Below are positions 3,001 to 62,064 of a stretch of 64,000 nucleotides of DNA, piece after piece. Origin of the DNA: Pelagomonas calceolata. Lineage: Eukaryota; Sar; Pelagophyceae; Pelagomonadales; Pelagomonadaceae. Every line of letters starts with the position of its first letter. The stretch's first letter is position 1. The DNA is taken from the NCBI GenBank assembly GCA_918797485.1, contig CAKKNE010000006.1, positions 2,666,001-2,730,000 of the forward strand, given 5' to 3'. Both the position numbers and the translations under genes were made by a program. Below the pieces are notes generated by a model that was not told the DNA's origin, ran no database searches, and saw nothing but the letters and a program-made list of their open reading frames with translations.

Positions 3001-6000
3001 CTTCTTCCAAGCCCAACGAATCGCCCTGGAAGGGCGTGATGCTACGAGCCTTGCTCGGGTCGTCTAATTCTAAGCCAGCGAGCAAATCCCCGGCCTCGAT
3101 CACACTTCCGGCGGCCATCTTCGGGGACACCGTGCCGGCGTCGGCGGCCTTGAGCCTGCGTTGATTGATACCCGTGAGTGAGGTAATCATGCGGCCGCGT
3201 CGAAGGCGTCGAGGCGATCTCGGCACCGCGGCCATGTTTTCAGCTCAAACTCGGACACGATCGCCGAGAGATACACTCGACCGCGTAGAGCAAGCAACAG
3301 TTCACACAGACCACAAATTGAAGGGCGATTGAAGATTTCTACACAGCAAACAAACGGCATGATCATCTTCATCGCTTCAACTTCCGCGAACGTCTCGCCC
3401 TTCTCGACCGATTCACCGTCTTCTTTCAGCCATCTCACGATCTTGCCCGTGACGTCGCTCCTGATCTCGGAAGGATCAAAGGCCGCGGGCACGAAGACGG
3501 TCGCGCCGTCGACGATGATCCTCAGTCCTAATGGTTCTTCTTGCCCCGTCAACTGGTGGGAGATGCCACCGTAACTCGCAAGTAGAGTACCGTCGGGCTG
3601 CTCGCGCACCGAAGCCGCGAGGGCCGGCCCGCCGTTCGTCACGAGGTCGAAGGACGCGTCGCCCGTGCGCTTGACGGTCACCGTGTACTTGACGTCACTC
3701 ACGACGATATCCAAGTCGAACGTGTCTAACGCATCGAGACCCGCCGTCGAGAACTGGCCGCGCTCCAATGCACTCTCAAATTCCGACCGCGCGGCCTTGC
3801 AGGCCTCGTGGGCCCGGAACAAGGCGGCGGACGCGACGACGACGCTGTCGTCGACGTGCGTGTTGATGGACTTGGCGGCGAGGATGCCGTCGAGCCAAGA
3901 GGTGTCGATGTTGTTGCTCTTGAAGTCGTCCGTCTCCAGTAACTGCACGAGGTACTCGACCGGGTTGCGGATCTCGCCGCGCACCTTCAGCTCCTTCAGA
4001 GCTAACACTAACGCCTTTCTCGCCGCTTCCCGATCCTCACCGGTCGCGAAGAGGTGGCCGAACTGCGAATCCGCAAATTCGTGGACCCCACCGTTCGCGC
4101 CCACCGAGAAATAACCCCAGACCGCCGGCGTCGACTGGAAGGACACGCGCTCGACCTTGCCGGACGTGGGCTTGAAGCTTTCATCAGGGTTCTCGGCCGT
4201 GATGCGCGCCGCGAGGACGTGCTTCTGGATGGGCCTGCGTTGTGTTTATGTGGTTACGGGCGTGCGCGTGGGGCGGTGTGTTCGCCGCGATGGCGTGGAA
4301 GTCGCAGCGTCCAGTGAAGCTCATACGCCATCCACCTTTGCGTCGATGGCGTGCCACGGCTCTCGCGAGACGCGTGGACCCTCTCGGGCCCACGGAGTGA
4401 TGGTCTCATGAAGACGCCGTCGCCGCGTGAAGAAACGAGACGCCGCATACGGTACCGGTACTTCGTGTTCGGGTCGTCGAGATCCAAGGTCGTCGTCGTG
4501 TCACTCTCGTCGATGCCGTACAACCTCCGCACCTCCGGCATGTTCGGCAGCGGGATGCCCATGGCCACTTGTAATTGGGTAGCGGGCAGATTCACGCCCG
4601 TCACGCCCTCCGTGCAGGGGTGCTCGACCTGCAGCCGCGGGTTCAGCTCCAAGAAAAAATAGTCGTCGTTGGCCGCATTATATAAATACTCGACGGTCCC
4701 CGCGCCCACGTAGCCGATGTTCTGCACTAATTGTTTGGCCTTCAACTCCATGTCCGCGAAGACGTCCGGTCTAGCGATACCTCCGGAAGGTTTGGTCGGC
4801 GGCGCCTCCTCGAAGATCTTCTGGAAGCGGCGCTGCGTCGAGCAGTCGCGCCCGTTCAGCGCGACGGCGTTGCCGTGCTCGTCGCCGACGACCTGGACCT
4901 CCAAGTGGCGCGCGCCGGTCATGAGCTGCATGACGAAGATCGGGGAACCTGCGTGGACGTAGCGTGACGCCGTCGCCGCGAGACGCGCACGTGATCGTGG
5001 TCGCGGCGATGGCATCTTCACGAGACCATCACGTCGCCTCCACGCCATCGACGCGGCGCGGCGTCGATGCCATGCGCCATCGACGCGGCGCGACGATCGC
5101 GTGTGTGAAAGGACGCCGCACGGTACCCGGCTGCTCGTTCTCGACCTGGGGAAACGCCGCCGACAATTCTTCCGCGTTCTTGCACATGCGGATGCCCTTG
5201 CCGCCGCCGCCCTCGCTCGCCTTGAGCATGACGGGGTACTGGACGCGCTCGGCCGCGGCTAACGCTTCTTCGGCCGAATGCACACACCCGGCCTCGAACG
5301 TCTCGCGAGGGATCGTCCCGTCCTCCTGCAAGTTCGCCTGGAGCGGCCCGTCGTCGCCGGGGTTGCCGAACGACCCACTCCAGGGGATCGACGGCACCTT
5401 CGCCGTCTGGGCTAGGATGTTCGCCGCAATTTTGTCTCCCAATACAGACATGACCGGCGCCGGCGGGCCCATGAAGGCGATGCCCTTCTCCTTTAAAGCG
5501 CGGGGCAGCTTCGGGTTCTCGGAGGCGTGGCCCCAGCCCGGCCAGACGGCGTCCACACCTAATCGCGACGCCGTGTCCACAATGAGCTTGACGTTGGCAT
5601 AATTATTGGTGTTCGAGCCGCCCGGGACTTCTACATATTCATCGGCTAATCTCACAAATTCCGCGTTGGCGTTCAAGTCCTCCGGCGTGGCCATGACGAT
5701 GAATTCTAAAGCGCGCTCGTCGCCTAACTCCAAGTAAGCCCATCTTCTCATGGACATGATGGACTTGGTCGCGGCCATGCCGTTGTTGGCGATGAGGACC
5801 TGTGTGCGGGGGTGCGTGAGTGGGGCAATTTGTTTTCGCAGCGGTTTCGGTTTCACGCAGCGCTCGCGGCGCTCGTAGCGCGCTCGCCGTCGAAGTTTCG
5901 CGGACGCCGCGCGGCGCACCCTTCTGATCACGCGCGTGCCGCCCTTCGCGGCGACGTACTCCGCCAGGCGGTCCTGCTTCGTCTCGGCGGCTACCGGCGC

Positions 6001-8772: not shown

Positions 8773-8980
8773 CGTGGACGATTTCTACGCGTGGCACGGC
8801 CTGCTCTCAGGCTGGCGTCTGGGCTCTCAGCTGTCAAAATGCTCTGTAGGCCTTTGTCTTCACGCACACTTCATGAGCGCTAGCGCGGCTGCACGCATGA
8901 ATCCAAGTTATGCGTGCAATCACGATACAGGCTCAGGCGGCACAGATTGGCTGGGTTAGCTTGAGCTCATGAGGTCTTGC

Positions 8981-9005
8981 TTGCTAGTGTCTCACAGCCG
9001 CTAGC
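8981..9005 (+). promoter_or_regulatory. CTAG promoter motif, copy a
   Basis: TTGCTAGTGTCTCAC followed by AGCCGCTAGC. It lies upstream of the leftward fibrillin gene (209 bp from its ATG). Confidence 0.5.
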
Positions 9006-9047
9006 TAGAACGCGACGGTTTCGCTCATCGAATCGGAAGAACGGTTG

Positions 9048-10498
9048 TTACGAAGCCGCGTTGCGCTCAAACAACGACTCCTGGCGCGGCTGGCAGACGC
9101 GATGCGTCGCGACGGCTAGGAAGGCGCAGAACGCCTCGATGCCCGCGAATCCCTCGCAGAACGGCGCCGTCAGCAGACGGTAGCCGACCGCGATCACGCC
9201 GGCGAGCGGAACCCGCGACGAAATGAGGACGTTCGCGTCGCTCATCCCGACGAAGGCACCCATGGTCACGGCCTGCGTCACGTCGTAGACCCACTCGCCC
9301 TTGGTGTTGAGGATGGCTAGGACTAGCAACGTGATGAGCAGCGCCGACATCGCGCCGGCCGTCGCGCTCGGGTGGCCCGTGGCGATCTTCGTCATACGTG
9401 TTAAAACGGCGGCCGCCACGGAGGAGGCCAGGTATCGTAACACCAGACCGATGCGGACCATGCTGTGCCAATGGTCTAACCCCGCCGAGAAGCGTTTCCA
9501 GGGCAAGATGCCCGCGGGGATCATTATAACGACGACCACAATGTTCGTCGCGATAAACGCGACCGTACCGTACCGTCCGCCGTTCCCCTCGGCGATCTTC
9601 CAGTGGCGCGCCGCCAGCCAGAGCGCCGAGGCGAAGATCGCCACGAGCGCCAGCCAGCCGAAGTCCGGAACGACCTCGGGATGGCGGTGCGACGACATGC
9701 CTGTGATCGCTCCGACGGTGGTGGCTTCTACCATGTTCGGCTGATAGAGCGACGCGAGGGTGACGGTGATTGCCCACGCGAGCTGCGGCTCCACCTTCGG
9801 CCCGAAGTGGGCGATCGAGTAGGAGAAATACGCCGAGAGGATGACTCCCAAGCATTCTATAACATAAGGCAGCATCTCCGCCCAGGTCTTCTTAATATCA
9901 AAAACCGAGTTCGGCGCGTCGAGGACGGACCGCTCGTTTTGCAAAGCGCGCGGATTCCACTCCTCGAGCCCGCACGGGTCCTTCTTTTGCATCCACGCCG
10001 GCCGGCGCAGCCAGAACCGCTTCTTCGGCTCGTCGCCGCCTGTGTGGAAATCAATCAGTGTGTCGGGTGCACCCGATAATTCTTCACTAAGTCTTTCTCG
10101 GCGATGACGTGGCCGCGCTGGCTCCGCCGAGCGGTGAGGAACCGGCATCGCCACGCCATCGAGCAGGTGTCGCGTCGATAGCGTGGAGGTCGACGCGGCG
10201 ATTCACGAACCGCGCCGTAAATTTGATTTCTACACAGGTCGCCGCCGTGCTTCGCCTCGCCCTGGTCGGCAAAGGCGCGCCAGTCAATGCGCGTAAGATC
10301 ACGGTGAATATCGCCCATATCCCGCGCCGAGCCCTCTCTTGTATTTCGTGTCGAGCCCTCGCGCATCGAGCCGCGGCCGTCGCCGATGTGGCGCGTCGAC
10401 GCCTCGCGGGGCGTCTGGAACGCCACCGACGAGCGGCGGCGGTCGGGCGGCGGCGCCGTCTCGGTGCCGTCGCGCGCGAAGCCGAGCATAGCCAGCAT
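9048..10498 (-). CDS. Multipass membrane protein of unknown family
   Basis: Exons 10246-10498 and 9048-10039, 414 residues from the ATG at 10498; the open frame extends a little further upstream without another ATG, so the start is uncertain. The first ~80 residues are Arg/Ser/Glu-rich with repeated RxGSxR units. About eight hydrophobic segments follow (for example VIECLGVILSAYFSYSIA, WLALVAIFASALWLAA, ALLITLLVLAIL). The layout resembles aromatic-acid exporter or FUSC-like proteins, but I see no diagnostic motif. The single intron is introner copy A; removing it with one target copy restores KHGGDEPKKRFW. Confidence 0.6.
10040..10237. mobile_element. Introner element copy A (198 bp) forming an intron
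   Basis: Short non-autonomous DNA-transposon-like unit. Left end CTGTGTGGAAATCAAT, right end ATTTGATTTCTACACAG, near-perfect inverted repeats. It is flanked by a perfect 8-bp duplication GTCGCCGC (10032-10039 and 10238-10245). A central hairpin lies at 10152-10185. On the minus-strand gene the intron is 10040-10245: acceptor CACACAG from the repeat, donor GC from the duplicated target. An alternative GT donor inside the repeat (CTGT|GTAGAA) would add four codons in frame. Confidence 0.9.
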
Positions 10499-14395: not shown

Positions 14396-16813
14396 TTAGT
14401 CGTACGACAGGCGCCGCAGGCAGTTCGCCAGCATGCGCAGCCCGTGCCGCGGGTTCGTCAGGATCGACTCCGGGTGGAACTGGACGGCGGCGATCGGTAG
14501 CGTTTTGTGTTCAACGCCCATGACCACGCTCCCTTCTCCTCCACTTTCTGTGGTCGCCACCACCTCTAGCTCATCAGGCACGTCGACGCCGTGCAGCGAG
14601 TGGTAGCGAGCCACATCAAATTCGTCGGGCAGCCCCTCGAAGACCGTCGAGCCACTCTTCTGTGAAACTTGGGCCGGCTTGCCGTGAACTGGGACATTGA
14701 GCTGGCCCAAGGTACCACCAAAGTGCTCGACGATGCCTTGTAGTCCTAAACAAACCCCAAAGACCGGCGTTCTTGAAGCGCTACATGCATCTAACGTCCC
14801 CGAGACGTCAAAATCAGAAGGACACCCGGGACCCGGCGACAACACGACTAACGCCCAGGGGCCGTCCTCTTTAATTGCGTTGAGAGCCGCAGGCCCACAC
14901 CGCGAGACCTCGACATCAGCACCGGTCTGCCGCAGGTAATTCGCCAAAGTGTGAACAAATGAGTCCTCGTGATCGACCAACAGAACTCGCTTGCCAATTC
15001 CCGCTTCTTCGGGATCAAAGCCCTCCACGACAGGTTCAACTGGAGCAGGACTCTCACCGGCCGCCGTCGATCGCAGCGCGCCGAGCATCGCGCTCGCCTT
15101 GAGCTCGGTTTCTGCTTCCTCCGCTACTGGATCGGAATCGTAGAGCAAAGTGGCACCGGCTCGCACGGACGCGACGCCGTCGGCGTAGTGGATCGTTCTT
15201 AGGGTCAGGCCCGTGTTTAAACTCCCATCAAAGGCGACGTGGCCGACGGCGCCGCCGTACCAGGCTCGCGCGGACCGCTCGTGCTTCTCGATGAAGCGCG
15301 CGGCCCAGGCCTTCGGCGCGCCCGTCACGGTCACGGCCCACGTGTGGCACAGAAAGGCATCTAGCGCGTCGAAGCCCTCCCTCAAATACCCTTCCACATG
15401 ATCGACGGTGTGGATGAGTTTCGAGTACATCTCTATTTGTCTGCGACCAATAACTTTGACCGAGCCAGGAGCGCAAATCCGCGACTTGTCGTTCCTGTCC
15501 ACATCGGTGCACATCGTGAGCTCCGACTCGTCTTTTTTGGAGCCTAGTAACGTGCGGACTTGCACCGCGTCCTCCAACGCATCAGCGCCGCGCTCAATCG
15601 TGCCCGATATCGGACAGGTCTCGACCCTCATTTTACCTTCAATCCTTTCGACGCGCACGAACATCTCCGGGGAGGCGCCGACGAGGTACTCGCCCTTGCC
15701 ATAGCCACTGATCCACGGCACTGACGAGTCGTCTTCGCCCCGTAAGTTCATCAGAAACCCGTAGGGCGACGGGTTGCGCTTTCGCAGTGTTCGGAACACA
15801 GCAGAAGGCTTCGCTTCTGCGGGAACGGACCACTGCTGCGACAGGACCACTTCAAACAAATTCCCACATGCGAATTCTTGCTTCGATCTTTCGGTGAGAG
15901 AAGCGTAGCCCCCCGGCTCGACGTCGCGATCTTGGACAGGCGTGCCCTCCTCATGTTTACGAGTCGTGCCGCTCCGAGCCATATCCACGGTAGACACCGT
16001 CTCTTCCTCCCCGGCCACGCACCACGTAAAGTCGTACTGTATCGTCCAGGCCTGCTGCTCCCGCGTGTCCACCACTAAAATCTCGTCGGGGATAAATAAG
16101 GCCACGTCCCGCTGCTGCTCCTTTCTGGACAGGGAAGGATTAATAGGTTCGAACTGGAACATCAGGTCATATCCGAGGGCGCCATATAACCCCAGCTGCG
16201 GGTCGTCGGGGTGGTAGAGCGTCTGGACGACGTTGCGGACCACAGACATCAGAGAAGGTTCCTTTGATCTTTCTTCTTCCCTCCTTATCTGGGAAGGGTC
16301 GCTGTCACGAATTCTCCCGACTAGTCGCGCGTAGTTGTCCTCCTCCTCGAGGGAAGCCACAGCATCGTCATCTCTCAGGTGCCCCTCGAGCATCTGCAGG
16401 ATTTTTCTCCCTCGATCATTCAATGCTGATAATGCGAAATCGCGAGCTCTGCCAGACAGCAGGACGGGCGGGTCACTAAACCCGACGGTCCACCTCGCAT
16501 ATCTACCAGGAAATTCGTAGGACGAGTGCATCAGCACGCCTCTCCGGTCGTCCAAGGCATCAACTAATGCCTCAGTGGCTCCATGAGCGTCCTCGACCGT
16601 GAACGACTGGCGCGTCACTCCGACGCCGCCCGCGGTCACGTAGGTCCCGTTCGGCGGCTGGAAGCGCGGCGCGCCGAGGCTCAGGACGGACTCCAAGGGG
16701 TTCTTCGGGTACTGGATCGTGCTATATTGTTGAGTGGGGCCTCGCACGTGTTTGGTGGGCGGCGCGAAGCCGACGACGCAGACGCATGCTGCTAGCAGCT
16801 GTGCGGCGCTCAT
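14396..16813 (-). CDS. TRPEG: Fused anthranilate synthase TrpE-TrpG, probably plastid
   Basis: 805 residues, one exon. Converts chorismate and glutamine to anthranilate, the first step of tryptophan synthesis. Signal-like N-terminus (AAQLLAACVCVVGFAPP) with a GFAP motif fits plastid import. The TrpE part (to ~590) shows LVGASPEMFVRVE, CPISGTIERG, LTMCTDVDRNDKSRIC, TVTGAPK and WYGGAVG. The TrpG part (~610-805) shows VLLVDHEDSFVHTLANYLR, SPGPGCPSD, the nucleophile loop VFGVCLGLQG and the AAVQFHPESI catalytic His/Glu. So both active sites look complete. The single-chain E-G order resembles bacterial fused enzymes rather than separate plant subunits. Start chosen at the signal peptide, not the longer open frame. 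Confidence 0.93.
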   Translation of the reverse strand: MSAAQLLAACVCVVGFAPPTKHVRGPTQQYSTIQYPKNPLESVLSLGAPRFQPPNGTYVTAGGVGVTRQSFTVEDAHGATEALVDALDDRRGVLMHSSYEFPGRYARWTVGFSDPPVLLSGRARDFALSALNDRGRKILQMLEGHLRDDDAVASLEEEDNYARLVGRIRDSDPSQIRREEERSKEPSLMSVVRNVVQTLYHPDDPQLGLYGALGYDLMFQFEPINPSLSRKEQQRDVALFIPDEILVVDTREQQAWTIQYDFTWCVAGEEETVSTVDMARSGTTRKHEEGTPVQDRDVEPGGYASLTERSKQEFACGNLFEVVLSQQWSVPAEAKPSAVFRTLRKRNPSPYGFLMNLRGEDDSSVPWISGYGKGEYLVGASPEMFVRVERIEGKMRVETCPISGTIERGADALEDAVQVRTLLGSKKDESELTMCTDVDRNDKSRICAPGSVKVIGRRQIEMYSKLIHTVDHVEGYLREGFDALDAFLCHTWAVTVTGAPKAWAARFIEKHERSARAWYGGAVGHVAFDGSLNTGLTLRTIHYADGVASVRAGATLLYDSDPVAEEAETELKASAMLGALRSTAAGESPAPVEPVVEGFDPEEAGIGKRVLLVDHEDSFVHTLANYLRQTGADVEVSRCGPAALNAIKEDGPWALVVLSPGPGCPSDFDVSGTLDACSASRTPVFGVCLGLQGIVEHFGGTLGQLNVPVHGKPAQVSQKSGSTVFEGLPDEFDVARYHSLHGVDVPDELEVVATTESGGEGSVVMGVEHKTLPIAAVQFHPESILTNPRHGLRMLANCLRRLSYD

Positions 16814-21300: not shown

Positions 21301-22829
21301 CACGTATTCCTCCTGCTCCGCTTTCAGAGTTAGTGCGATGAAGATCTGCTGCAGTTTTTCGTTGACGAAATTTATGGACAGCTGCTCAAACCCATTACGG
21401 TCGAAAATCTCGAAGCCGTAGATGTCCAGGACGCCGATCGACAGCAGCTCCTCGTCGTCCTCGCCCTGCACGCCTGGATCTAATGCTACATTGACCTGCG
21501 TGCGATCGTGACGACGCCATCGACGCGTTCATAGAGATACGCTGGGCCCGCGCCTGCTCGACGAGCTCGTCAAATAGTTTGGAATAAATGGACTTGACGA
21601 GCGCGTCGCGCGCGAGCGACGCCTGCGTCGGGTTCAGGGGCACCTGGTACGTCTCCGTCTTGCCGCCGGGCGCCATGGTCTCCAGCGTTCGGGACGCTAG
21701 CGCGTCTTTCAGAGCTGTCGGATCGAGGTGGAGCAGGGAGCAGGCCGCCTCGAGCGGCGCGGACTCTCGGATTTGGGAGCCTTCCGCGTCGCCCACCGCT
21801 AGTGGACTGAAAGATAGTAATCCCAGAGCTAAGCAAGCTGCCACTACTCGTAGAGACAGGTCCGCCGTCGCGTCGTCGAGGCCGACGTCGGCCATGGCCT
21901 TGGCGGTGTCGTTAAATTCCTTCTGATCGTCGATGCCTTGTACGGACGTACACGACGCTAATGAGGGATACGCTTCTGCTGAATCTAACAAGCACAACCG
22001 TGACCGTTCATCGGTAGGCGCGCCCTGGACTAATTGATAGAACACGTGGAAATTTCTTTCGCCTTGGCCGGGTTTCACGGTCCGCGACTTCTCGAGCAGG
22101 TAGTTCGTCACGACGCCGCCCTTCGGCGTGCCGAAGCGGTCGAAGAGCAGCTCGAAGTACTTGCCGAAACCTGTGTGGAAATCAACCAGTGTGTCGGGTG
22201 CATTTCTCGGCGATGACGCGGCCGTCCTGGCTCGGTCGAGCGGTGAGGAACCGGCACCGCCACGCCATCGAGCAGGCGTCGCGTCGATTCAGCACGAACA
22301 AAATTTGATTTCCACACAGGTCGAAGCGTGAGGAATTATTATTTCTCAACGTCTTCGCATTGCCAAAGGCCTCGAGCAGCGGGTTCGACTCGAGGAAGAC
22401 CTTCTTGACCCTTTCTACTTCGGCACTGTTACCTTGAGAACAAAGAGCGAAGTAGCCCTGGATGTGCTTCGAGGCCTCCGTCTTGCCGGCGCCGCTCTCG
22501 CCGCTGATGATGACGCACTGGCTGTCCTCTTCTTCCGTCATGGCCCTGAAGGCGGCTTCGGCCACCGCAAACACGTGGGGGGGCACGTCTAGCCTCGACT
22601 GTCTCATGTACCGTTTGGCGTCTTCGGAGGAGTAGATTTGCAGCCACGTGAAGGGATTCGCCGCTACGAGGACGTTGCCTATATAAGTATAGATGCACTC
22701 GGCTTCTAACCGCTCTTTGAGGTTGTCTCTAATTCCTTGCGGCGTTGGTTTGGTGAGTAGCGTCATGTCGTCGAGGCCGGGCCGCTTCTTGTCGAGGCCG
22801 GAGCGCTTCGGCGGGGGGCGGGGCGCCAT
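18358..22829 (-). CDS. Myosin heavy chain with TH1, degenerate FYVE and GYF-like tail
   Basis: Inferred exons 22328-22829, 21563-22170, 18590-21495 and 18358-18520, all in frame, 1392 residues. Motor: P-loop GESGAGKT, switch I NNNSSRF (split by introner B), switch II DIYGFE, actin-side MQCEPHYVRCVKTN. No clear IQ motif is seen after the motor. A TH1-like basic region follows (SSVDRPYEGEYL to DGILVIGTG), then a FYVE-like segment with RRHHCR but lacking several zinc cysteines (CPVTG, CRASG), an Arg/Glu/Ala coiled coil, a proline-rich linker, a GYF-like domain (FYWQHTDGEQRGP) and a CKCGKL-CPPC end. Likely moves on actin and binds membranes. Junctions of the last two introns are less certain than the first. 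Confidence 0.88.
18521..18589 (-). other. Minimal intron (69 nt), myosin 3' end
   Basis: GT at 18589, AG at 18521; keeps frame (DPGVL to APATKLKFKK). Contains GCGTCGATGGCGT and ends CTACGCAG. Other nearby GT sites break the frame. Confidence 0.6.
21496..21562 (-). other. Minimal intron (67 nt) in the myosin motor
   Basis: GT at 21562, AG at 21496, phase 0, giving KLFDELVNVALDPG before the switch II region. It holds GCGTCGATGGCGTC and a CACGCAG acceptor. Alternative in-frame junctions (donor 21540, acceptors 21486 or 21474) cannot be excluded. Confidence 0.6.
22171..22319. mobile_element. Introner element copy B (149 bp) in myosin switch I
   Basis: Same ends as copy A: CTGTGTGGAAATCAAC on the left, TTGATTTCCACACAG on the right. 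The flanking 8-mers GCCGAAAC (22163-22170) and GTCGAAGC (22320-22327) match at 6 of 8, a worn duplication. The internal sequence is shorter than in copies A and C and has lost one arm of the central hairpin. Removing 22171-22327 (GC donor, AG acceptor) rebuilds the conserved SSRFGKYFE exactly. Confidence 0.88.
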
Positions 22830-24309: not shown

Positions 24310-24635
24310 TTTTGCTGCGTGTGCTGAAAGAGGCACGTGCGATGATTGTGCAGATGCTCTACCACCACGTATAAGGACGCCTAGCAATAGAAATCGCTCG
24401 GTGAATCCAGCTTTGCTGCCTTTGATTAGCTAGCGGCCTGTAAGACACTAGCAAGCACAAATCTCCCCCAGTCCTTCCTCCTACACGTGCAAACGTCGGC
24501 GGACGACCGCTCGCCGAGCGTTCCCTTACGAGAGCGACACCTAGAGCCCTCACCTAGAGCCCTCACAAACAAGGCCACTGCATTGGAGCCGAGTTTGCGG
24601 CCAAACGGCTGCCCTTCAAGCCGCAAAACGCAGCA
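24310..24635. promoter_or_regulatory. Divergent promoter with CTAG motif, copy f
   Basis: Reverse motif at 24429-24454 (GCTAGCGGCCTGTAAGACAC then TAGCAA), continuing GCACAAATC exactly as in copy k at 61.9 kb. It is 120 bp from the left ATG and 182 bp from the right ATG. Confidence 0.6.
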
Positions 24636-36366: not shown

Positions 36367-39082
36367 TTACTCCTCCTCAGGCAGAGGACAAAACTCGGGA
36401 GTCGACGCTATAGCAGAAGCCAATCCCGAGGAAACGACCGGCGGCGCCCGCGCCGCGTACGTCACCAACCCAGCCGCAGCAACAGCTTCGCCGAGCGACC
36501 GGTCCAGGCCCGCGCGACACAACTCAATGAGTGTTTCGCAGGCGCGCCGCGAGACCACGTACGCCGACAGCGAAGGGACGGACGCGCGGACGACGCGGCC
36601 TTCGCCCTTCTCATCCACCCTATACCGCTCCGGAACGCACAGGTAGAGCAGATCATATTCTTCCGGAACCTCGCTCAGCAGCAGCGCCACGGCGTCGGCG
36701 AGGTCGGGAGGCGCCTCGACGCCGTCTTCTAGAACTAACAGATGATCTGTGGTACAGAGGCGCCACGCCTGACAGTGCGACGCCGCGCGCGCGACCTCGC
36801 CGCGCCGCGGCTTCAACAAGGCGAGACCCTCTTTCGAAGCGCGCGCGGCCCACGCGTCATAATCGATAGCGACGTCGGGGTGCTCGCGCAAATGCCTCTC
36901 CAAATCACCTTCGACCAGACCATCGACCGCCGGCTGCACAACAAGTCTAGGAAGAATAGCCGACAGCTGCTGGACGTTCGCCACGCGTCTTGATTCTCTG
37001 CGTAACGACAGGACGACGCCGCCGACGACGCCGTCCGCGCGTTTTACTGTTACTTTTTCTTTACCGGCCTTCAGGCTTCGCGCCAGCTCCTTGAGTGGGG
37101 CGACCTCACTGCCGGCGAGCCTTCCTTCCAGCACATCTAGGAGCTCCCCCTGAGACACGGCAGAAACACAACCAATTGTAGTTGGCGCCCTACACTCGCG
37201 CCCGGCCTTGACGCGCGCCCAGAAGCCGCCGCCCAGTTCCGCCGTCCGCTGCGCGACGAGGGCGTCCTCCTCCGCACGACTCTTCAGCACCACAATGGCC
37301 GACTCCGACGGCGGCAGCAGTTTGAGCGTCGCCGACGTTTCTAGTAATTTCGGCCCCGACTCCTCAAAAATCTCCCTAAGCCAGTCCCGCTTCTTGTACA
37401 AAGTGCGCCAGACCCTCAAGAGAGTTTTTTGCCTCCTCTCTAGAATAGCGACACGTTCCTCGCGCTTCATGAGCGGCGGCGCCCCGACGCCTCTAAATGA
37501 GTCCACATCCACACCTGACTTGCGCGCCCGCAGCACAACGTCCAGGTCGTCTCTTTCTAACTCGTCCACACATTCCGCTAACAATAAACCGGTCCTCAAC
37601 AAAAACACGGGCACCAGCAGCGCCGCCTCCTTGCGAGTAGGTGGCTGATCGCAATGCTTGAAATACGCCCGCAGCGCCACGGGGAACGCTTGCGTACCGG
37701 CATCTAATCCACGCTTCGAGAAGTCCCAGACAAACAGGTGGTACAGGTCCCACAGTCTACAATGTTCGCGGCCGCCCTCGCAATTATCGACGCGCACCCT
37801 CCTTGTTTTAACGTGCTGGCGGCATGAGGATGGCGTGAAGTTTGCATGGACCCACTGCGGTGCCAGGTCCCTCAAGATGAGCGGGACGTTGGTTTCGACC
37901 TGTGTGGAAATCAAAATTTTACGGCGCGTTCTCGTCGCGTCGACCTGCACGCCATCGACGCGACGCCTGCTCGATGGCGTGGCGATGCCGTTCCCTCACC
38001 GCTCGACGGAGCCAGCGCGGCCACGTCATCGCCGAGAAATGACTTAGTGAAGAATCGTCGGTGCACCCGACGCACTGGTTGGTTTCCACACAGGTTTCGA
38101 CGAGCTTCGCGTATTCCGCGCCGATATCAGACGCCGCGAGCTTGGCACAGGCAAAATCACAATCCTTCCGCAATTGTTCAGCGAAGGGCCGCGGCCGCAG
38201 CTCCATGGACGCGCACGCGATGGAATGGAGCGCGTACGTCCTCGCACAGCGATGCATTAAACCAAGGCACCGACCGACGACGGACGGGTCTCCCGAGGGC
38301 TTCCCGGCGAAGCGCGGCCGGCAGACCCACCGCCTCCCATACAACGCCGCGACGACCTTCGATTCCCGTCTGACGGGTACGAAGCCACCCACTAGTAAAT
38401 CTTCGGGCAGGAACCCCTGCAACCGATTCCAGGCACTAGCTGAGCTTTCCGCGTATCTGCCATCATCCCCACAATCTTTGATCGTATGTATGTCAATCTT
38501 TTTTGTGGCAATGTGTTCACAAGCGCCTTCAGACGTGCCTTCATCCCTCAAAACGCGCCGACACGCATCCACAACGGACGCTTCCCTAGGCACGGCGAAC
38601 AACTCGAGAACCCGCTGGGCCCGGTCTTGCACGTTCTTCTCGTGCCTTTCCCTTAGCTCTTCCCGCGTCGTCCGCGTCAATATGCGCGGCACATATTCTA
38701 TGAGCGCCGTATTCGTTTTTGGCGTTCCAAAAAACTCTGGAGACGACGAAAACCGCACCCAGAGCGTCCGCTCGTGACCCAGGTCTTCCGATAATAATGA
38801 ATCGAGGTCGAGCTGCGATCGCGACGCGTCGCCCCAGAGTGCAGCGTCGCGGCGCGCATGGGGTGCCGATGGCCTAGCGCGTTCATAGGCGTCGAAGAAC
38901 GTGTCCAACAAACTCCGCAAGGACTTCCGGCCGAGCCACCTCGACGGGAGCGTGCATCGTAAGGCGAAGCGGTGCTCTTTGTCCGTCTCCTCGAGGCGGA
39001 CGAAGACCTCGACGCCTTTTGGTTTTTTTGCCGTCGTGGCCATGTCTTTTGGGTCGCGCGGTTCGGGCGGCGCGGCGGTCAT
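36367..39082 (-). CDS. GT25-like glycosyltransferase with large N-terminal region
   Basis: Exons 38102-39082 and 36367-37899, 837 residues, joined through introner C to read AEYAKLVETNVPLILRDL. The C-terminal ~130 residues resemble glycosyltransferase family 25 (collagen galactosyltransferase/LPS type): SHCQAWRLCTTDHLLVLEDG, where LEDG stands in for the usual LEDD, then YDLLYLCVPERY and SLSAYVVSRRACETL. The N-terminal ~330 residues and the central helical region are unrecognised; NVPLILRDLAPQWV recalls the start of cupin_8/JmjC domains but the iron-binding triad is not visible. No signal peptide or anchor is obvious. Confidence 0.55.
37900..38093. mobile_element. Introner element copy C (194 bp) forming an intron
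   Basis: Ends CTGTGTGGAAATCAAA and GGTTTCCACACAG; perfect 8-bp duplication GTTTCGAC at 37892-37899 and 38094-38101. Internally it is nearly the reverse complement of copy A over its whole length, so it sits in the opposite orientation. The central hairpin CACGCCATCGA-12 nt-TCGATGGCGTG (37948-37981) is perfect. On the gene strand the donor is the target-derived GTCGAAAC and the acceptor CACACAG; phase 0. Confidence 0.93.
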
Positions 39083-47593: not shown

Positions 47594-48412
47594 TTATGCC
47601 GCCACAGCGAACTGGGCCACGTACTCTGCCTCGATGTCGTGCAACGTCGGCGCGCAGAGCACGAGGCAATGTAAAGGCGCGCCGAAGTCGACGGACCGCA
47701 GCTCCGCCAGCGTCCCGGCGACGATGCGCTCGTCGGCCTGGCCTAATCTAGCCAAGCCGACGGCCCTAGCATCAGGACCGCAGACGCCCTGCCCGTGCTC
47801 GGCCTCGGCACTTAATAATTGCTCGACCGCCTGGTTGATCGTCATAAATCGAGGAGGTAAGTACCTTGTGCGACCGGTCTCGGCCAAATGCGCATAGTCC
47901 GGCTCCTTCACCTTGATGTCCAGCAAGCACAGCGTGTGCAGGTTCCCCGATCGATTAAAAGCGATCTTCTCGTACCAACTCGTCGGTCGCCACTGCTCCG
48001 TCCAGAACGGCAGCGACACGCACTGCCCGTACGAGTACAGCTGCAGCCCGCACTTGCCGACGGCGCCCATGACCGACGCGTTCTGGATCACTTCTACCTT
48101 TACGTCGAGCTTTTTTGCTCGTAAGGCTATATCAGTATGTGTAGTAGCACAAAGGACGTCGCCCACGACCAGCAAAGCCACATTCCCGTCCTTGCTCCGC
48201 TCCAGCATCTCGTCGCAGCCGGACTCGACGACTTCACGGCTCGCAACTTTGACCTCTCGCCCGTAGAACGCCTCCAATCTCTCCACGCCGACGCATAATA
48301 CCGAAGTATAAGCTTCAAGCCAGACCTGGTCGCATTTCTTCACCGCTTCTAAGCCTCGTACGGTGATGTCGCGCTCGTCGCCCAGTCCTAGGCCGACGAG
48401 GTAGAAGACCAT
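47594..48412 (-). CDS. DPH5: Diphthine (methyl ester) synthase
   Basis: 272 residues. SAM-dependent methyltransferase of the diphthamide pathway that modifies a histidine of eEF2. Tetrapyrrole-methylase fold: [20 protein letters not shown] at the start, [27 protein letters not shown] (the family GDPL loop reads GDVL), [43 protein letters not shown]-type segment and the C-terminal [22 protein letters not shown]. Start at 48412 is fixed by the conserved N-terminus. The 5' part is duplicated upstream. Confidence 0.95.
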
Positions 48413-48721
48413 GGCGATGGCTGCAGTGCTGCAGCGCTGCGTCTGAGCGTCTCCTGCGGCTGTCCGCGACCTGTGGTGATAGTTGCTGAGCCACCTGGAA
48501 CGCCTCCAATCTCTCCACGCCGACGCATAATACCGAAGTATAAGCTTCAAGCCAGACCTGGTCGCATTTCTTCACCGCTTCTAAGCCTCGTACGGTGATG
48601 TCGCGCTCGTCGCCCAGTCCTAGGCCGACGAGGTAGAAGACCATGGCGATGGCTGCAGTGCTGCAGCGCTGCGTCTGAGCGTCTCCTGCGGCTGTCCGCG
48701 ACCTGTGGTGATAGTTGCTGA
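48266..48721. repeat. 224-bp direct duplication of the DPH5 5' end
   Basis: 48266-48489 and 48498-48721 are identical by eye, separated by 8 bp. The unit carries the first ~49 codons of DPH5 and ~75 bp of leader. The outer copy has its own ATG (48644) but reads off into non-homologous sequence, so it is a truncated 5' copy. Identity suggests a very recent event or an assembly artefact. Confidence 0.9.
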
Positions 48722-50720: not shown

Positions 50721-52826
50721 TCACATTGCATTCAGTACGTTCTTGTAAAACTTGGCGTGAGGATGGTCGGGGCCGTACGCGCCCTCGAAAATCTTCACCG
50801 CGCGCGTTACGTATTCTCGCTTCTTGGCGGCGTCGCCTAGTTCGCCGTAGGCCATACCGAGGCTGCCCAGTATCAATGCCACTTCCGGGTGGTCGCAGCC
50901 GTACGTCCGCTCGTTGATCGCAAGCGCGCGCTCCAGCACGTCTCTACTCTTCGCGTGGTCGCCTAAGTCGCCGTACGCGTTCCCGAGGTTCGTCAGCGTC
51001 CCGGCCACGCTCGTGTGGTCGCGGCCGTAAGTCCGCTCGAAGATCGCGAGCGCGCGCTCCAGCACGTCACGCGCCTTCGCGTATTCGCCTGAGGCGCCGT
51101 ACGCGTTCCCGAGGTTATCCAGCGTGATGGCCACTTCCGGGTGGTCGCGGCCGTACGCCCGCTCCTTGATCGCGAGTGCGCGCTCCAGCATGTCTCGCGA
51201 CTTCGCGTGGTCGCCTAGGTTGCCGTACGCGTTCCCGAGGTTCGTCAGTGTCTGGGCCACTTTCGCGTGGTCGCGGCCGTACGCCCGCTCCTTGATCGCG
51301 AGCGCGCGCTCCAGCATGTCTCGCCTCTTCGCCTGGTCGCCTAATCTACCGTAAACGACCCCGAGGTTCCCCAGCGTGACGGCCACGTCCGGGTGGTCGC
51401 GGCCGTACGTCCGCTCAAAGATCGGGAGCGCGCGCTCCAGCATGTCGCGCGTCTTGGCGTAGTCGCCTAAGTAGCCGTACGCACTCCCGAGGTTCGTCAG
51501 CACGACGGCAACCCTCGTGTGATCGCTACCGTACTCACGCTCTTCGATCGCGAGCGCCCGCTCCAGTATGTCTCGCTGTTTGGCGTAGTCGCCGAGGCCC
51601 ATGTACGTATTCCCGAGATCAGTCAACAAGCCGGCCACGTTCGTACTATCTCTACCGTGCTCGCGCTCGTAGATCGGGAGCGCGCGCTCCAAGACCTCGA
51701 GCTTCTTGGCATTGTCGCCAAGGTCCCCGTACGCGAGCCCAAGATCCCACAGCGCCACGCCCACCGCCTTGCTCTCCGCACCGAACGCTCGCTCCTGCTT
51801 CGCTAACATAGCTTCCCGGACCTTCACGACGCCTGCGGACTCCTGAATCGACTCGAGCAACTCGCAGAGGCCGTCAAGCAAACTCGCGTCCGCGTCGTAC
51901 CCGAGCACGTGGTCCACCAACTCCTCCACACCGTTAACCTCGTCGACGGGCAGCTTGCACAGCATCTCGAGCCGCTGCGCGACAGCATCTGAATTGCCCA
52001 AGAAAAACGACCGAAAGTACTCGTAGACCGTGTGGCTCCGGTGTAGCGCCTCCGACTCTTTGATCGGCATGAGATGAATTTGTAGCTCGCACATGTGCGT
52101 CACGTTCTCGACTTTCACGGCGACGTTCATCAAGATGTCCTGGTAGCCGTTGAAGAGCGGCGGCGCGAACCGGTTCTTCGTCCGCACGATATCAACGCGG
52201 TCGTCGGCTTCGAGCGATGCGTAGAGCTGCACGATGGCGTCCTCCGTCTGACAGAGGGCCGCGCCGCGCGTAATGTCGAAGAGCCAACTGTAGCACGGCG
52301 CCGTCTTGTCCTTGTACTCGTCGCGCGCCTTGGCGCCGGCACGGTCGCGGCCCTTCAGCGGCGCGAACATCAGCTTCACACCGCTTTCAGGGCACGCGGC
52401 CGTCATGATCTCCTCGAACTGCACGCGCGCCAGCGCGGCGACCTCGTACAGCGCGTCGAGCGACGCGGCCGGCTCGCCGTCGAGGCCGCATTGGCGACAC
52501 TCGTCTCCTAAATTCTTGCCCACCCACGGGATCTTCTTCACATCACCCTTGATGTGCACGATCGCGATCTCGTCGATCTGCTCCCGCGCGGCCTTGAACG
52601 CCTTCAGGTTGTGAAACATGCATTTCCGCGGGTCGAGCGCGCGCTCGTCGTGCTCCTTGGCGTAGGCCTCTAACTTGGGCCACGGCACCGTGCGCGTTCC
52701 GTCCGCGCCCTCGGTCGCGGCGGCATCAAACGCTTTCTTCTTTTCCGCGTCGTACAGCACGCCGATTTCATTTTTGATGGCCACTTCGGACAGTGGTGCG
52801 CCCTCCGTCGACACACCTGCACCCAT
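50721..52826 (-). CDS. TPR protein with N-terminal RelA/SpoT-like region
   Basis: 701 residues. MGAGVS is a good N-myristoylation start. Residues ~175-285 resemble the RelA/SpoT nucleotidyltransferase fold: CYSWLFDITRGAALC, DIVRTKNRFAPPLFNGYQDI, MNVAVKVENVTHMCELQIHL, although the catalytic set was not verified. From ~345 about eight near-identical 42-residue TPR_12 (kinesin-light-chain-like) units follow, with the recurring ERTYGRDHPDVA and LGDHAKSRDMLERAL. The high similarity of units points to recent array expansion or gene conversion. Such N-domain/TPR proteins are an expanded family in some algae; function unknown. Confidence 0.75.
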   Translation of the reverse strand: MGAGVSTEGAPLSEVAIKNEIGVLYDAEKKKAFDAAATEGADGTRTVPWPKLEAYAKEHDERALDPRKCMFHNLKAFKAAREQIDEIAIVHIKGDVKKIPWVGKNLGDECRQCGLDGEPAASLDALYEVAALARVQFEEIMTAACPESGVKLMFAPLKGRDRAGAKARDEYKDKTAPCYSWLFDITRGAALCQTEDAIVQLYASLEADDRVDIVRTKNRFAPPLFNGYQDILMNVAVKVENVTHMCELQIHLMPIKESEALHRSHTVYEYFRSFFLGNSDAVAQRLEMLCKLPVDEVNGVEELVDHVLGYDADASLLDGLCELLESIQESAGVVKVREAMLAKQERAFGAESKAVGVALWDLGLAYGDLGDNAKKLEVLERALPIYEREHGRDSTNVAGLLTDLGNTYMGLGDYAKQRDILERALAIEEREYGSDHTRVAVVLTNLGSAYGYLGDYAKTRDMLERALPIFERTYGRDHPDVAVTLGNLGVVYGRLGDQAKRRDMLERALAIKERAYGRDHAKVAQTLTNLGNAYGNLGDHAKSRDMLERALAIKERAYGRDHPEVAITLDNLGNAYGASGEYAKARDVLERALAIFERTYGRDHTSVAGTLTNLGNAYGDLGDHAKSRDVLERALAINERTYGCDHPEVALILGSLGMAYGELGDAAKKREYVTRAVKIFEGAYGPDHPHAKFYKNVLNAM
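50870..51680 (-). repeat. 126-bp tandem coding repeats (TPR array)
   Basis: Six to seven units of 42 codons are very similar at the DNA level, each containing variants of GGTCGCGGCCGTACGTCCGCTC on the plus strand. This is a likely site of unequal exchange and of assembly collapse. Confidence 0.75.
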
Positions 52827-61561: not shown

Positions 61562-62064
61562 GGCTTCTCGGCGCGCGCCCGTATCGGCGCGTTTGGCTCA
61601 CAACGGATTTGAGCGCAGCGCGGTTGTTGGGCGGCGCGGCGCGTAATTTAGGGCTGACGAACCCTTGGCTGCTGGTGAGTAGTATATTTCGACAGCGCGC
61701 GGGAGCGCTGCTTGAGCTCTTGCAGCTGCGGAGACGCGCTCTGCCTGTGCGCCCTGCACCAGGACAAGCTCATTGGTGCGCCGTGCGCCCAAAATGCGGT
61801 CCCATGCATCGATGCCGGCGGTCTGCTCAGGCCCAGAGAGGCGTCATAAGAACAGTTTAGGAAATCCCGCGCCCTAGCGGCCGGTAAGACACTAGCAAGC
61901 ACAAATCAGCTGCGGCAAAATCGCAAGCAAACGCGGCGCGTGAGGCTTATCACAGCCAGGGACGGCCCACAGCGGTACCCTGAGACAGCTGGCGCTGCGC
62001 GCTGGGCAAGAGCGTAATCGTAAAAGGCCGCGGCAAGCCGCGCGCACGCCTAACGACAGCAGAC
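61562..62064. promoter_or_regulatory. Divergent promoter with CTAG motif, copy k
   Basis: 503 bp. CTAGCGGCCGGTAAGACACT then AGCAA at 61874-61898, extended to GCACAAATC as in copy f. It is 313 bp from the left ATG and 167 bp from the right ATG. Confidence 0.6.

Follow-up and report, generated by a model that had tools for sequence, protein, structure and literature searches.

Within a minus-strand gene of the 64,000-nucleotide stretch of Pelagomonas calceolata DNA analysed here (the window), we found a 198-bp element with terminal inverted repeats (TIRs) that, judged from its sequence, is probably removed as an intron with a donor taken from the duplicated landing site. We consider it likely that the element is a non-autonomous, MITE-like DNA transposon of the introner kind in an algal nuclear genome, and that the GC of its target duplication is used as the 5′ splice site. 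According to the proposed mechanism, a transposase supplied from elsewhere would insert the element and generate an 8-bp target duplication. As the sequence CACACAG faces outwards at both ends, the element would provide a 3′ splice site whichever strand is transcribed. The 5′ splice site would be formed by the two bases with which the upstream duplication begins, GC in the first copy (A). The spliceosome would then excise one duplication copy together with the element, and the original reading frame would be restored exactly. The coordinates of the three copies found in the window, A to C, and of their surroundings are compiled in Table 1.

Table 1. Element copies, target duplications, predicted introns and host exons in the window
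Feature	Position (strand)	Remark
Copy A	10040..10237 (-)	198-bp TIR element
TIRs of copy A	10040-10054 + 10223-10237	
Target duplication of copy A, downstream copy with respect to the minus-strand gene, exonic	10032..10039	exact direct repeat
Target duplication of copy A, upstream copy	10238..10245 (-)	minus strand GCGGCGAC; bases 1-2 are the predicted GC donor
Predicted 206-nt GC-AG intron A	10040..10245 (-)	removal restores the frame; flanks both rank first of six as coding
Internal GT, 12 nt into intron A	10232..10233 (-)	possible alternative in-frame donor, from the sequence
Upstream exon, host gene of copy A	10246..10498 (-)	first in-frame ATG at 10498; weak coding score (+1.2)
Downstream exon, host gene of copy A	9048..10039 (-)	stop codon at end; hydrophobic protein
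Copy B	22171..22319 (-)	149 bp, internally shortened, in myosin gene
Duplication of copy B, exonic copy	22163..22170 (-)	minus strand GTTTCGGC
Duplication of copy B, intronic copy, GC donor	22320..22327 (-)	minus strand GCTTCGAC; matches its partner at 6/8 positions
Predicted 157-nt GC-AG intron B	22171..22327 (-)	in the switch I motif of the myosin motor
Myosin intron 2, 58 nt, probably GC-AG (CAG/GCGCGG)	21496..21553 (-)	not a copy of the element
Copy C	37900..38093 (-)	194 bp; orientation within the host gene reversed compared with A and B
Duplication of copy C, exonic copy	37892..37899 (-)	minus strand GTCGAAAC
Duplication of copy C, intronic copy, GT donor	38094..38101 (-)	minus strand GTCGAAAC; perfect 8-bp pair
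Predicted 202-nt GT-AG intron C	37900..38101 (-)	open frame through the junction; best-of-six coding on both sides

The 15-nt ends of copy A, CTGTGTGGAAATCAA (from 10040) and TTGATTTCTACACAG (to 10237), are complementary at 14 of 15 positions. A preliminary description of the segment 10032-10245 had reported inverted ends, which are indeed present and longer than claimed, and a perfect 8-bp duplication, which we recovered at both flanks as the direct repeat GTCGCCGC (10032-10039 and 10238-10245); counting the adjoining C common to both copies would make it 9 nt. A strict scan of the window required inverted ends of 15 nt, no more than one mismatch between them, and an exact 8-bp duplication at their flanks, with the copy starts 68-600 bases apart. 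It gave two matches, which fit copies A and C, and none in 100 windows simulated with a first-order Markov model. Thus, the combination of TIRs and exact duplication lies far above chance, and the notion of the 8-bp repeat as a chance repeat was dropped. A looser scan (10-nt ends with at most two mismatches, duplication with at most one) yielded 54 pairs, the other 52 of which look like chance matches of GC-rich sequence; the GC content of the window ranges from 59.5 to 66.1% by bin. The TIR core on its own was not above chance, with 13 occurrences at up to three mismatches versus 10.6 expected. Seven of the 13 had at most one mismatch, namely the six ends of copies A-C and one site at 3334-3346.

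Removal of 10245..10040 from the minus strand produces EAKHGGDEPKKRFWLRRP, without a stop across the junction and with flanking frames that rank best of six as coding, which agrees with the exact, in-frame removal proposed earlier. Retention of the intron leads to a stop inside the element. The coding scores come from a codon model trained on 1908 codons; these were drawn from four further gene pieces of the window, exon 1 of the copy B host (a myosin) among them. Upstream of copy A, the predicted frame ranked first with a weak score of +1.2 (next -14.1), the one downstream ranked first with +44.7 (next -3.8), and all frames within copy A scored at or below zero, i.e., a coding-like frame was absent from the element. 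The host protein looks membrane-bound, judged by eye from its hydrophobicity; searches for Pfam matches, PDB matches and viral relatives each came back empty. The low upstream score, together with a downstream frame that runs without a stop into the element as far as 10202 and has a Met there, would suit an unspliced MITE in a split or 5′-truncated host gene, in which translation of the downstream frame would begin at an ATG within the element. We regard this reading as very improbable, because removal brings the flanking frames together exactly and the duplication boundary provides a GY-AG pair, and because the same holds for copies B and C, in B even within a conserved motif.

The preliminary description had proposed a search for further copies with 8-bp duplications and a tabulation of their donors. 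Two such copies are present in the window, C with a perfect 8-bp pair and B with a 6/8 match, and the donors borne by the duplications are GC in A, GC in B and GT in C. The three copies reside in three different minus-strand genes, and the likeness between these loci is confined to the element plus the duplication. An interior 31-mer pattern occurs in all three copies, with none expected from shuffles. In an alignment of 201 columns, copies A and C share 88.6% identity, and copy B matches A in blocks (91.9% over 86 and 96.9% over 32). The TIRs measure approximately 15 nt, and the family end sequence is CTGTGTGGAAATC. Relative to the host gene, A and B share one orientation and C is reversed; excision restores the minus-strand host frame in all three cases. 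At the flanks of copy C, the predicted frame was the best of six in the codon model (+20.0 and +22.5), and a Pfam search with its host protein gave no match. On these features of the sequence, the family would be classified as a non-autonomous TIR transposon that is an introner by anatomy.

A minus-strand gene at 3148-3351, which we take to be biotin-carboxyl-carrier-like from its motif EAMKM, has an intron with CTGTGTAGAAATC in its 5′ part, one mismatch away from the element end. Beyond this, a 22-nt stretch of the intron weakly resembles the element (86%), but a duplication and a 3′ TIR are both lacking. It is perhaps a decayed relative of the element.

All three predicted introns end with TTTCCACACAG, the element's own end, as the acceptor. 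On the donor side, each of them offers two in-frame choices, the GY of the duplication and an internal GT at position +12 (CTGT/GTAGAA in A, CTGT/GTGGAA in B and C; the slash marks the putative splice position). The latter keeps the frame, since 8 + 4 = 12 nt, as the preliminary description had stated. The host of copy B is a myosin motor (Pfam Myosin_head), and exact excision of the element gives NNNSSRFGKY. The best PDB myosin carries NNNSSRFGKY as well, and the second NDNSSRFGKY. We scored four myosin translations with Pfam, in which the donor of intron 1 was combined with the in-frame GY donors of intron 2. The duplication donor gave 704.4, 712.8 and 706.7 bits with the three intron 2 donors, and the internal GT gave 703.6 bits with the best of these. 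Thus, the duplication GC is the better fit for myosin intron 1. Use of the internal GT would place four extra residues within NNNSSRFGKY at a cost of 9.2 bits, a modest share of 712.8; the interruption of this motif speaks against the internal GT as the main donor in copy B. The highest score belongs to the GC donor of intron 2, and a best-fit GC in a myosin intron that is not an introner suggests that such donors are commonplace in this genome. Moreover, the intronic duplication copy of B would encode RFD and the exonic copy encodes RFG, which is consistent with an intronic copy that is no longer translated. The two copies of this duplication differ as GC/GT, and either direction of change is compatible with the data. 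Those of copy A are identical, so that a GC donor since insertion is the simplest reading.

Simple U1 pairing gave the opposite preference: the internal GT scored higher than the duplication donor in all three copies (4.5/3.0 in A, 4.0/3.0 in B and 4.0/3.5 in C), and every donor was weak. Co-option of the donor from the duplication, as claimed earlier, would fit the anatomy of all three copies and is favoured in B by the myosin motif, and it runs against the U1 pairing. If the internal GT were the main donor, each insertion would add four residues, as in family 4 of Aureococcus sp. The GT is in frame throughout, and an identical 8 + 4 = 12 nt architecture appears in the legend to Fig. 2F of PMC9860276. 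In view of the interrupted myosin motif, and of the predicted TIR stem that encloses the GT (and also the acceptor AG), we nevertheless consider this improbable. Activity of both donors, with GC used mostly and the internal GT as an alternative, would result in protein forms that differ by four residues. This is somewhat less improbable, both donors being in frame in each copy, yet the longer myosin form would probably be damaged. We continue to favour the duplication GC as the predominant donor.

Introners of Micromonas pusilla and Aureococcus, reportedly described by Huff, Zilberman and Roy in 2016, are said to be short non-autonomous transposons that bring one splice site of their own and borrow the second from the target that they duplicate. 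Their study is referred to in PMC9481584, PMC7789003 and PMC10228655. The present copies resemble those of M. pusilla and Aureococcus anophagefferens in their anatomy: they are short non-autonomous TIR elements with a putatively co-opted splice site, exact predicted removal, introns of approximately 200 nt and insertion in both orientations. Insertion in both orientations is likewise mentioned in the excerpt of PMC10228655 that relays Huff et al. As excerpted, PMC9860276 states that introners carry the acceptor and obtain the donor from the duplication, and that 'GY/AG' splice-site nucleotides are often found in the duplications. According to the Fig. 2F legend of this 2022 paper, 12 bp are added by an introner of Aureococcus sp.; the duplication accounts for 8 of these and the element itself for 4. 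Measured against the 8-bp length in that legend, the TIRs of our copies are accompanied, as in Aureococcus-type introners, by a duplication that is exact in copies A and C and 6/8 in B. Family 4 of Aureococcus sp. (TARA_AOS_82_MAG_00129), as described in PMC9860276, has in common with our copies a duplication of 8 bp and a potential donor located 4 bp within the element. In family 4 this internal donor is reportedly the one in use, whereas the duplication donor fits better here, at least in B, and the family 4 example (positions 3289-3365, <80 bp) is shorter than copy A.

Copies A-C would be a clear instance of the published introner mechanism, and both the GC donor and the 12-nt alternative were already known. 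The novelty that the preliminary description had assigned to the GC donor does not hold, given that GC-AG introns account for 39.6% of all introns in A. anophagefferens and 22.2% in M. pusilla according to the excerpt of PMC3033335 (2011), where their origin is called an enigma and the U1 5′ ends of both species are described as ordinary. Nor is the built-in fallback donor a new architecture, in light of the 12-bp introner in the legend cited above. The splice motifs of A. anophagefferens introners are termed canonical in the excerpt of PMC7789003, which is in tension with the 39.6% unless GC was counted as canonical there. The same excerpt covers the introners of Amoebophrya, which resemble our copies in their pairable inverted repeats, direct repeats at the borders and non-canonical splice sites. 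They differ in having very diverse splice sites and direct repeats of 3-5 nt, compared to GY-AG and 8 nt in the present copies. For P. calceolata, PMC9481584 reports a genome GC content of 63.6% and an intron length peak at ~210 bp, likened by its authors to the introners of A. anophagefferens; our predicted introns measure 206, 157 and 202 nt. A survey of titles and abstract openings found no paper on GC donors of introners or on a palindromic target, which is no proof that these are unpublished.

We also looked for relatives of the element outside the window. An interior 19-mer proved too short, matching 8 viral and at least 119 prokaryote loci, and neither the TIR core nor the extended interior pattern occurred among the 127 viral and prokaryote matches listed. 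Patterns of 28 and 30 nt detected no viral contig. An 18-mer of the element end found one (L128), in which only 16 end-like nucleotides match, and this was dismissed as chance. A virus as carrier of the element was dropped after these searches of viral contigs. A comparison of the element with phage DNA gave no match, and an Rfam search of the window gave nothing. Duplications of 8 bp are made by transposons of the hAT, P and Merlin superfamilies. Among 11 window proteins scanned with Pfam no transposase was found; the enzyme would act in trans.

Several other features of the window were recorded. The single minus-strand frame at 14399-16717 joins Anth_synt_I_N, chorismate-binding and glutamine amidotransferase domains, i.e., parts of anthranilate synthase in one chain. 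A perfect direct repeat of 224 bp is located at 48266-48489 and 48498-48721, and a minus-strand gene for a TPR-repeat protein at 50733-52793 contains long internal DNA repeats around 50800-51734. A dispersed short repeat of ~30-34 nt, 94-97% alike, occurs at 24427-24463, 61874-61907 and 8978-9007.

The target sites of all three copies conform to GYNNNNRC, as do all six duplication copies. Such a target offers a GY donor on both strands; together with the outward CACACAG at both ends, this accounts for the restored frame in either orientation. Selection for a working donor accounts for the GY of the sense side alone. In the window, RC follows GY at a distance of six bases with a frequency of 0.186, which gives a probability of ~0.006 for three of three by chance, a post hoc value from three sites only. 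The three predicted introns fold better than their dinucleotide shuffles, with z values of -3.84 (A), -3.75 (B) and -3.03 (C), and of 200 shuffles, 0, 0 and 1, respectively, folded equally well. In the predicted fold, the TIRs form a basal stem in which the internal GT is paired, and the 8-nt duplication copy remains unpaired. This stem also pairs the acceptor AG, which is why we treat a masking of the internal GT as no more than a conjecture. We tentatively suggest, while thinking it rather doubtful, that the transposase prefers a palindromic GYNNNNRC target, that the element serves as a strand-indifferent intron, and that TIR pairing masks the better-scoring internal GT and frees the GY of the duplication, whereby the weak GC would be chosen.

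As a mechanistic discovery, these copies hardly go beyond the publications of 2016 and 2022. Their significance would lie in showing that GC-AG introns can arise directly from introners: a single family is inserted at two duplications with GC and one with GT, and one of the insertions lies in a near-invariant protein motif, from which the choice of donor can be read. A preference for GYNNNNRC, if it holds genome-wide, would tie the specificity of the transposase to the large proportion of introns of the GC-AG type noted in Aureococcus and Micromonas pusilla. If true, a palindromic target combined with masking of the internal GT would explain the abundance of GC-AG introns in such algae, the enigma of 2011.
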